DNA of 64,000 nucleotides. Origin: Rossellomorea marisflavi (GTDB lineage Bacteria > Bacillota > Bacilli > Bacillales > Bacillaceae_B). The notes under the pieces were generated by a model that was given only the letters and a program-made list of their open reading frames with translations, was not told the origin of the DNA and did no database searches. The stretch spans positions 4,099,001 through 4,163,000 of the forward strand of contig CP033051.1 of NCBI GenBank assembly GCA_003667865.1, given 5' to 3'. The position numbers and the translations under genes are program-made. Of the stretch, positions 10,904-13,426 are shown one piece after another (position 1 is the first letter of the stretch; every line of letters begins with the position of its first letter).

Positions 10904-11473
10904 TTAATTTTTAAAGTAACGTTCTAATGTTTCAATTAAGTCATTTTCAATAAGTAATTTCCCATAATCATCTAAATATTCAATGGTCATTTTTGCCTTG
11001 CTTCCAAATTCATTTGCGACTGCCTCTATTACATAATCTTTGTCAATTAGTTTTTCAAACACAATATAATAAATCTCTTTAAATGAATATAAGGAAATAC
11101 TTTTACAATGCACTTTATTTTTTATCGTTCTAGAAAAAGATATTACAGCTTCAAAATCTTCAAACGCAAATATTTCGCATTGTATATATTCTAAAGAATA
11201 GGAGTGAATTTCATCTTCAAATAGTTGTTCATCAATTTCTAATGTTAGAATTAGTTGAACTTCTTGTTCATTAAAAGAATGTACTTCCACGGTTACTTCT
11301 ACTTGTGAATCTATACCATATTTATCTTGAATTTGTTCTAACATTTCTTCAAATAATTCATGCCATATAAGCGATTCTTTTAAGAAGTTTTCATTAAGCA
11401 TACCTTTTGCTTCGAGTTCATCTACACCTATAGAAAACTTTATTTTATTTCGGGTCAAACGCTCAAGCTTCAT
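10904..11473 (-). CDS. ypbH: MecA-family adaptor protein YpbH (MecB)
   Basis: MecA-family adaptors deliver substrates to the ClpC-ClpP protease. The 189-residue protein begins MKLERLTRNKIKFSIG, the typical MecA N-terminal substrate-binding start. An acidic middle follows, then a C-terminal ClpC-binding domain with the pattern FEDFEAVISFSR and ..YLDDYGKLLIENDLIETLERYF. It lies beside gudB, where B. subtilis has ypbH, the paralogue of mecA; true mecA is normally next to competence genes that are not in this window. An AGGGGG ribosome site precedes the ATG. Confidence 0.88.
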   Translation of the reverse strand: MKLERLTRNKIKFSIGVDELEAKGMLNENFLKESLIWHELFEEMLEQIQDKYGIDSQVEVTVEVHSFNEQEVQLILTLEIDEQLFEDEIHSYSLEYIQCEIFAFEDFEAVISFSRTIKNKVHCKSISLYSFKEIYYIVFEKLIDKDYVIEAVANEFGSKAKMTIEYLDDYGKLLIENDLIETLERYFKN

Positions 11474-11643: not shown

Positions 11644-12558
11644 CTATTTACGCTCAAGTCTACTTTTTAACCAATCTTCCCAATCATGCTTTGACGGACC
11701 AACAATATGGTCATCATATTGTTCTCTTAAACGAGCAGGCAGTGAATTCACCGCTAATCCGCCTAGACCTATTTCTAATTTAGAGTACTTATCTTTGAAG
11801 CGCTTAATTAAATCAAAGGTCTGTCCTAAATTCTCCCTTAGAGTACAGGATAAGAATAGGAATTTTGGATCTACTGTATCGATAACAATCTCAAGGTCTT
11901 CTTCTTTAATACTTGATCCAAGATAAATCACTTCAAATCCTTTTCTTCTAACAAATAACGTAAATATTAACAAGCCTAGCTCATGCCATTCATCCGGGCC
12001 ACAAACTGCTACCACTTTCGGTAATAGGTCATTATGAGGGAAAGAATGCATAATGATACCAATCCGTGCACGTAGAATAGATGTAGCAAAATGTTCATGT
12101 GCCGTTGTAATTTCTCCATTTTCCCAAAGGTCCCCAATTTTCACAAGCAGACCGCCAAGTATATCTACAACTACTACGTCAATGGTGTAAATAGAAAAAG
12201 CGTTATTAATCATCTCATGTGCTTTTGTTTCATTAAAATTTAATAGTGCTTTTAGCAGCTCATTCGAAATATGCTCCGTACGTGTACTTGTGGAATGTTG
12301 TACTTCCTCTTCTTTTTCTAATTCATGTTTGTCTAAAAGAGACACAGCTTGGCTAATGGTAAACCCTTGATTCACTTTTCCTACAAGCCATTTTAATATA
12401 TTTAGATGCTCTTCCGTATACAAGCGATGTCCCGATTCATTACGAACAGGTGCAATAATATTGTAACGACGCTCCCATGCTCGTAATGTTCCAGGCTGTA
12501 TATTAAGAATTTTGGAGACTGCTTTAATGTTATACTTTCCTTCAGATTGTTTCATCAT
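11644..12558 (-). CDS. MerR-type regulator with cobalamin-binding domain (CarH/LitR-like putative light sensor)
   Basis: The 304-residue protein has a MerR helix-turn-helix (about residues 8-76; YNIKAVSKILNIQPGTLRAWERRY). A helical bundle (about 95-175) and a B12-binding Rossmann domain (about 180-300) follow. The diagnostic CarH signature W-x9-EH is intact (Trp145, Glu155, His156), and the cobalt-ligand motif ExHxxG is present as E190-W-H192-E-L-G195. In CarH/LitR proteins adenosylcobalamin makes the protein bind DNA in the dark, and light releases it. No carotenoid genes are nearby, so the target is unknown. It stands between ypbH and ypbG, which are close together in B. subtilis. A strong SigA-type promoter with a direct repeat lies upstream (12594-12631). 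Confidence 0.88.
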   Translation of the reverse strand: MMKQSEGKYNIKAVSKILNIQPGTLRAWERRYNIIAPVRNESGHRLYTEEHLNILKWLVGKVNQGFTISQAVSLLDKHELEKEEEVQHSTSTRTEHISNELLKALLNFNETKAHEMINNAFSIYTIDVVVVDILGGLLVKIGDLWENGEITTAHEHFATSILRARIGIIMHSFPHNDLLPKVVAVCGPDEWHELGLLIFTLFVRRKGFEVIYLGSSIKEEDLEIVIDTVDPKFLFLSCTLRENLGQTFDLIKRFKDKYSKLEIGLGGLAVNSLPARLREQYDDHIVGPSKHDWEDWLKSRLERK

Positions 12559-12593
12559 AAATCCCCCAAATACAAATAACTATAGCTCCTAAG

Positions 12594-12631
12594 ATTATAA
12601 TGGAAAAAAAAATACGTGTAAAATTTGTATA
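12594..12631 (-). promoter_or_regulatory. SigA promoter with TGTA direct repeat upstream of the MerR/B12 gene
   Basis: On the minus strand TTTACA (12617-12622) and TATAAT (12594-12599) are spaced 17 bp, a near-consensus SigA promoter. On the plus strand TGTAAA (12617) and TGTATA (12626) form a 9-bp-spaced repeat across the -35. MerR/B12 regulators bind repeated TGTA-type sites, so autoregulation is possible. That part is inference. Confidence 0.55.
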
Positions 12632-12655
12632 GGCTATGGGGAAGTTATGTACACT

Positions 12656-13426
12656 TTAAGATCGTTTGATCGAAAGAAGATGTGTTTCTGCAGGTGCCCC
12701 TAAGCGAAATGGAATCGCAGTAGTTCCGTATCCATTGCTTACTAATTGAGTTGTATTATGAAAGGTGTCAAGCTTTCCTTTCGGATATAACCCCAAACCA
12801 AATATACGTATTTGACCACCATGGGTGTGACCGCTTAGCATTAGATCAACTGATGTTTGATCTGTAAGCTTACGAATCAGACGTGGATCATGACTAATAA
12901 GTATGTTAAAGCTTTGCTCCTCTACATCTCTATAAGCCTTATTCAAATCCGCTTTTCGAAGACTTGCATCATCTACCCCGATCAGCGTTACTTTTCCAAA
13001 TTCATTTTCTCTAATTACTATTGAGCTATTTACAATTTCCGTTACTCCCTTATCTTGAAACAACTTTTGTAGATTTTGACGATCTACCTCATAGTCATTA
13101 TTACCCCAAACAAAATAAATGGGAGCAATTTGATTTAACTTATCTATATTTTTACCAACTTTTTCTAATTCTACACCCTTTTCTAACAAATCTCCACCAA
13201 TTATGACAAAATCCGCTTTTTTTCTCACTTTTGCAATGATTTTATCAGACACTTTTCGTTTGTGTATATCAGAAATAAAAAAAATATGTAATGGGTCTAA
13301 CTGTTGTGGGTATGAGCTAAAGTGAACAGTCGTCTCTCTTACTCTATTCCGAAATGCTTCTATAAACATAAATAGTAACATGCTGACCACGATTAGGATC
13401 AGCATGATAAAGTATTCATAACTCAT
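12656..13426 (-). CDS. ypbG: Membrane-anchored metallophosphoesterase YpbG
   Basis: The 256-residue protein has one N-terminal transmembrane helix (about 5-23), then a calcineurin-like phosphoesterase domain. The metal ligands are visible in order: D53-x-H55 (SDIH), D79 (GGDL), GNND, a His in ISHDP and GHTHGG. This matches the YkuE/YpbG-type family, some members of which act on lipid-linked or nucleotide substrates; the substrate here is not known. Its start overlaps the end of the upstream membrane-protein gene by 11 nt, so translation is probably coupled. Confidence 0.85.
   Translation of the reverse strand: MSYEYFIMLILIVVSMLLFMFIEAFRNRVRETTVHFSSYPQQLDPLHIFFISDIHKRKVSDKIIAKVRKKADFVIIGGDLLEKGVELEKVGKNIDKLNQIAPIYFVWGNNDYEVDRQNLQKLFQDKGVTEIVNSSIVIRENEFGKVTLIGVDDASLRKADLNKAYRDVEEQSFNILISHDPRLIRKLTDQTSVDLMLSGHTHGGQIRIFGLGLYPKGKLDTFHNTTQLVSNGYGTTAIPFRLGAPAETHLLSIKRS

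Follow-up and report, generated by a model that had tools for sequence, protein, structure and literature searches.

The carH locus and its gene product

The 64-kb stretch analysed here, referred to as the window, contains a gene of the carH/litR type on the minus strand (11644..12558), recognised as an open reading frame with the matching Pfam domains and from its structure and sequence relatives, that encodes a protein of 304 amino acids. It is preceded by a gene for a ypbG-like metallophosphoesterase (12656..13426, minus strand), assigned from its domain and a comparison of 58 loci, and followed by a mecB/ypbH-like gene of the MecA family (10904..11473, minus strand), assigned from its domain and locus comparison. 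The ypbG-like gene adjoins carH in 56 of the 58 loci, the two exceptions being Chloroflexota MAGs, while mecB was recognised beside carH in fewer loci. The ypb cluster, where the gene had originally been noted to lie, is thus the normal home of the carH family. This contrasts with Thermus, where carH is located beside the genes for phytoene synthase, photolyase and ldrP. Within the genus, carH was identified in 34 of 36 genomes, with the copy beside the ypbG-like gene as the usual one. At the level of the order, 260 of 397 genomes contained carH at E 1e-20 and 227 at E 1e-75 or better, the latter referred to as strict. The closest named relative is from Rossellomorea aquimaris (75% identity), which makes it probable that the genome belongs to Rossellomorea.

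The protein consists of a MerR helix-turn-helix domain (MerR_1, residues 9-76), a helical B12 domain (B12-binding_2, residues 99-169) and a Rossmann B12 domain (B12-binding, residues 181-290), all above the Pfam cut-offs, so that a MerR DNA-binding domain and a C-terminal B12 domain are joined in one chain. The W-x9-EH motif is formed by W145 (codon at 12124..12126, minus strand) together with E155 and H156 (12091..12096, minus strand), and the ExHxxG motif contains H192 (11983..11985, minus strand), the predicted lower axial ligand of the cobalt. These four residues were found where the original prediction had placed them and are invariant in all 11 aligned proteins. In CarH, the motif tryptophan forms a cap over the adenosyl group. 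Five proteins in the genome matched the B12-binding domain and only the carH product also has a MerR domain; the other four are methylmalonyl-CoA mutase, IcmF, a radical-SAM protein and a 225-residue protein with B12 domains only. Since the models for the two AdoCbl mutases, methylmalonyl-CoA mutase and IcmF, scored over their cut-offs, the cell should have AdoCbl at its disposal.

Among proteins of solved structure, the best sequence matches were CarH/LitR from Thermus thermophilus (5C8D-F, 3WHP; E 2-3e-24), which have the same domain order, W-x9-EH motif, lower histidine and fold at 28% identity over 95% of the length. A Foldseek search with an AlphaFold model (mean pLDDT 80, 11 sequences) likewise returned CarH as the top match (5c8d, 2e-16). 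With VIA-align, the Z scores for the B12 domain were 20-21 against CarH entries and 21.7-22.8 against photocobilins, in a PDB list that is dominated by the B12 domain and barely tests the helix-turn-helix part. Domains, motifs and relatives thus all bear out the classification as a CarH/LitR-type protein. The score against the NCBIfam CarH equivalog model NF052513 was 133 bits, below the cut-off of 400 and the 510 bits of Thermus CarH; this cut-off governs naming by a model to which Thermus proteins fit best, and corresponds to no functional feature.

The phmmer alignment with the Thermus protein revealed differences at three positions, which we take to be His132, Arg176 and Asp201 in the Thermus numbering. 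The residue following the motif tryptophan is E146 in place of His132, and Arg176 and Asp201 are replaced by W191 and S216. Both the ligand of the light state and the dimer contact are therefore expected to differ from those in Thermus. A histidine beside the motif tryptophan, the bis-His ligand of the light state, is said to occur in many CarH homologues, and is thus not strictly defining for CarH.

The carH promoter and its predicted operator

Upstream of carH, a predicted SigA-type promoter consists of a -35 element TTTACA (12617..12622) and a -10 element TATAAT (12594..12599) on the minus strand, separated by 17 bp (12622 to 12594; 11/12 score). Of the 5 promoter-like sites within 1.6 kb it scored highest, and since shuffled sequences contained 4.9 such sites on average, the near-consensus promoter of the original prediction would be a weak call by itself; its presence in relatives supports it.

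The -35 element lies within a predicted self-operator of four tandem 11-bp units (12615..12653, minus strand), two perfect (TGTACA, 12653-12648; TATACA, 12631-12626) and two degenerate (TCCCCA, 12642-12637; TACACG, 12620-12615). The CarH repeat is given as nnnnTnnACAn every 11 bp, over the -35 or -10 element, and the arrays bound by CarH proteins other than CarHBm have just one or two units that are perfect, according to the sections available of PMC9304148 and PMC8156234. In the same sources, CarHBm/LitR of Bacillus (Priestia) megaterium is a tetramer with AdoCbl that binds four tandem 11-bp repeats, or three and a pseudorepeat. The layout of the putative self-operator matches these operators, and as with the CarHBm array, the predicted arrays here cover the -35 element at carH and the -10 element at the crt genes.

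Four runs of 100 dinucleotide shuffles, made on copies of the same region, reached the 14/16 matching positions of the self-operator 0, 1, 0 and 0 times. At least 13/16 positions matched in 29 of 34 loci from the genus, 9 of 14 loci from other genera and 5 of 12 named relatives; the loci below this score (5, 5 and 7, respectively) include six from Domibacillus and that of Anoxybacillus calidus. Among the 140 units of the 35 carH promoters that passed the array score, the second letter was A or G in 96%. LitR of B. megaterium represses its own gene, and the predicted self-operator makes the autoregulation that was originally proposed probable also here.

The operator had first been described as TGTAAA/TGTATA repeats 9 bp apart. 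These are literally present on the plus strand, but do not give the correct register: the 11-bp units extend to 12653, and the three-unit arrays at mgsR and crtN described below occur at a period of 11 and at none of the other periods from 7 to 15. As a genome-wide probe, the conserved 17-mer core TATACAAANTTTACACR was uninformative, with 190 matches at 3 mismatches versus 205 for the reversed control. Its second-best match, with 1 mismatch (G000:C1:4166984; L058:3985-4001), is located some distance upstream of a Y-family-polymerase-like gene.

Operator arrays at an unlinked crt operon

We searched the whole genome for repeat sites and crt genes, as the original prediction had suggested. Exact TnnACA x3 sites were found at four places: before the crt operon, before a DUF421 gene, beside trpA and before a gene of the Spx/MgsR family. 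With 1 mismatch allowed there were 67 matches against 38 for the control, so that single matches of this kind mean little. The exact site beside trpA (3902539) consists of TTTACA/TAAACA units and was regarded as either a chance occurrence or PhoP-like. The site at C1:323706 (L063:3707-3734) is a perfect T[AG]TACA x3 array, about 90 bp before the gene for a DUF421 (YetF-like) membrane protein; among the 36 genomes of the genus, none of the others has an exact site of this type anywhere but at mgsR and crtN.

No crt genes were found within the 64-kb window, and the two SQS_PSY matches in the genome are both more than 1.4 Mb away from it. The gene thus does lie away from carotenoid genes, but in linkage only: a crt operon 1.46 Mb away, with two CrtI-family desaturase genes and a gene of the phytoene/squalene synthase family, has three perfect CarH-type units, spaced 11 bp apart, across the -10 element of its promoter. 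CarHBm likewise controls the crt genes, according to the text available for it, and the combination of CarH with a crt target is already known.

Outside the genus we examined the crtN promoters of 28 of the 142 genomes with carH (17 selected automatically, 11 by hand) and of 9 of the 16 without it, the other 7 having no listed place. Arrays matching at least 11/12 positions were present in 25 of the 28 versus 1 of the 9 (G209), and the strict pattern in 18 of 28 versus 0 of 9. A genome without carH in a genus otherwise rich in it (G334 in g11; L347) has no mgsR orthologue at the cut-off and a crt promoter lacking an array (8/12).

A conserved array at the mgsR-like gene

The fourth exact site is located before a gene for a protein of 126 amino acids that adjoins comGA-like genes, a neighbourhood that yqgZ (mgsR) presumably also has in B. 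subtilis. The product belongs to the ArsC-like Spx/MgsR family (TIGR01617, 123.8 bits; cut-off 75) and has a CxxC motif (C12-x-x-C15) in the translation, features shared with MgsR (YqgZ) of B. subtilis; it also passed the Spx subfamily model PRK01655 (135 versus 123 bits), so that mgsR, as the gene is called below, is a tentative name. A close orthologue was present in 34 of the 36 genomes of the genus, and the two lacking it (G014 and G027) also lack carH and crtN.

Across these 36 genomes there were 120 exact TnnACA x3 sites, as compared to 15 for the reversed pattern. The narrower pattern T[AG]TACA x3 at 11-bp spacing occurred at 55 sites, comprising 33 at mgsR, 21 at crtN and the one at the DUF421 gene, and the remaining 65 sites included 3 at crtN and many conserved elements that are not CarH-like. 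The mgsR array was perfect in 33 of the 34 genomes and degenerate (10/12) in G010, one of three genomes with carH in which crtN was not found at E 1e-30; this assembly is in 630 contigs. The other two, G016 (only 84% complete) and G021, retain both carH and a perfect mgsR array. Tandem CarH-like repeats were also seen in two genomes upstream of a gene for a DUF4397 protein that is followed by a sortase gene (G025, L237:2029-2067, with units TGTACA/TATACA/TAAACA/TGTACA; G006, L236:1996-2023), which is possibly an extra CarH target in some species.

The mgsR promoters examined outside the genus were from 58 of 132 genomes with carH (14 loci selected automatically and 44 chosen by hand across genera) and from 14 of 20 without it, the other 6 having no listed place. 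Full 12/12 scores were obtained for 52 of the 58 and 3 of the 14, and the pattern T[AG][AT]ACA x3 was present in 49 of the 58 versus 1 of the 14, the single case being G209; the other two promoters with full scores but no carH have the units TTGACA/TGAACA/TTTACA, farther up. Four genomes have carH but no good mgsR array (G071, G080, G222 and G329).

In B. subtilis, the induction of mgsR depends exclusively on SigB, and MgsR activates its own expression, as described in the accessible part of PMC7235348. A SigB-type site, GTTTAA-N15-GGGTAT in the available text of PMC9847131, was found in the mgsR promoters of 11 of the 14 genomes without carH and 4 of the 58 with it. B. subtilis differs in this from the genus of the window, where 33 of the 34 mgsR promoters contain CarH-type arrays and none a SigB-type site. 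SigB-type promoters were found for the mgsR orthologues (61-68% identical) of genus g43, which lacks carH. Loss of SigB from the genomes with carH was considered and rejected, SigB being present in 346 of the 397 genomes of the order, including the one studied here.

Three of the four genomes with carH and a SigB-type mgsR site belong to one family (f21; L277, L278, L314), in which the CarH-type units overlie a SigB-type GTTTAA/GGGTA promoter. This overlap is a possible transitional state between the two control modes. The same family includes G209 (L267, L341), which has both types of site at mgsR and a crt array, and in which carH was not found, reflecting either a recent loss of carH or an assembly gap.

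Both carH and mgsR were present in 148 of the 397 genomes, 79 had carH only, 20 mgsR only and 150 neither, which yields odds of 14 that are not a test of independent events since related genomes inflate the counts. Of the 227 genomes with a strict carH, 45 had neither mgsR nor crtN at the cut-offs used.

Proposed regulation and alternative explanations

We propose, with a probability of roughly 0.8, that the carH product is an AdoCbl-dependent photoreceptor-repressor of the CarH/LitR type that in the dark keeps three targets switched off, namely carH itself, the unlinked crt operon and mgsR. The binding of AdoCbl, the response to light, the repression and the oligomer state are all predicted here from the sequence. 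In the dark and with AdoCbl, an oligomer of the protein would bind T[AG]TACA units, repeated in tandem every 11 bp across SigA-type promoters, and repress carH, the crt operon and the MgsR-like (Spx/ArsC-family) gene beside comG. Light, or a lack of AdoCbl, would destroy the complex and release all three targets, so that carotenoids and a redox stress regulator that binds RNA polymerase would be made together. The regulon, which the original prediction had left as unknown, can thus be replaced by these three candidates, as read from the arrays in the genomes; tandem 11-bp TnnACA repeats at the promoters of target genes are what a CarH protein would be expected to recognise.

An 11-bp array need not belong to CarH. 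PhoP boxes have the form TTHACA about every 11 bp and overlap with the CarH consensus, and if the arrays were PhoP sites, mgsR and crt would be phosphate genes. Arrays of TTTACA x3 at 11-bp spacing do exist, directly behind the gene for a sensor histidine kinase that is PhoR/PnpS-like by its domains and translation (L229, L231, L233, L238). The second unit letter is T in all six sensor-kinase arrays of this type that we examined, whereas at the mgsR and crtN promoters of genomes with carH it is A or G in 99% of the units and the third letter is T in 95%, at both genes alike. These frequencies are based on arrays matching at least 10/12 positions, with 264 units from 88 of 92 mgsR loci and 171 units from 57 of 58 crtN loci, all from genomes with carH. 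At the mgsR promoters of genomes without carH, both letters are mixed (7 of 14 loci, 21 units). We set aside the TnnACA x3 elements at the sensor-kinase genes and at an rlmH-like (SPOUT methyltransferase) gene, since the second position of their units is not A or G. The latter correspond to a near-identical element, TCCACACTCRCTTTACAAACAATTTACA, that occurs 19 times in the genus and as close variants elsewhere; it is located just before the rlmH-like gene in L234:2092-2119 and L235:2072-2099. With the arrays also following the presence of carH, we regard PhoP control of mgsR and crt as very improbable.

A CarH of bacilli that controls only itself and crt, as in B. megaterium, would leave the mgsR array to another, co-occurring regulator with 11-bp repeats. 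The crt genes are indeed the only target described in the parts of the literature that we found, with litR itself as a further known one, and the co-occurrence of carH and mgsR is partly phylogenetic. Yet the mgsR and crt arrays have the same second and third letters, which had not been used for finding the sites, and together account for 54 of the 55 T[AG]TACA x3 sites, and we consider a separate regulator of mgsR unlikely. Scarcely less unlikely, in our opinion, is that the carH product acts on the same operators as a sensor of B12 status or as a light-insensitive, cobalamin-independent regulator like CarA. The replacement of the residues corresponding to His132, Arg176 and Asp201 of the Thermus protein would fit such a role, but the W-x9-EH motif is conserved throughout the alignment. 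Among myxobacterial homologues, this motif is described as intact in the CarH group only and not in the CarA group.

A broader version of the proposed CarH control, which we favour with clearly less confidence, is that MgsR is gated directly by the B12 photoreceptor, rather than by SigB, in most of the sampled genomes of the order with both genes. The mgsR promoter would then have switched between two kinds of control site, a SigB box and a CarH operator, part of the general stress response would be under the direct control of light and B12 status, and the stress regulator rather than the carotenoids would be the most conserved target of CarH. An mgsR target of CarHBm, unlike the array present here, is unmentioned in the portions of the literature found, and the accessible text on CarH photoreceptors and the general stress response names CarH for carotenoid genes only. 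We found no prior report of CarH together with Spx or MgsR in the open-licence literature, a scope outside which the original B. megaterium LitR/CarH papers fall, and the link between CarH and MgsR is therefore new within that literature.

The known role of CarH is to switch carotenoid genes, to which mgsR would add a second and better conserved target, itself a regulator of oxidative and general stress. If correct, CarH would act as a master regulator upstream of the photo-oxidative defence of these bacilli, and in many related bacteria light could turn on the pigment sunscreen together with the stress defence. Visible light and vitamin B12 would be wired directly to the stress response, without passing through YtvA-SigB, and the gene would be an example of one input being exchanged for another. 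The retention of carH in some species without crt genes would also become easier to explain.
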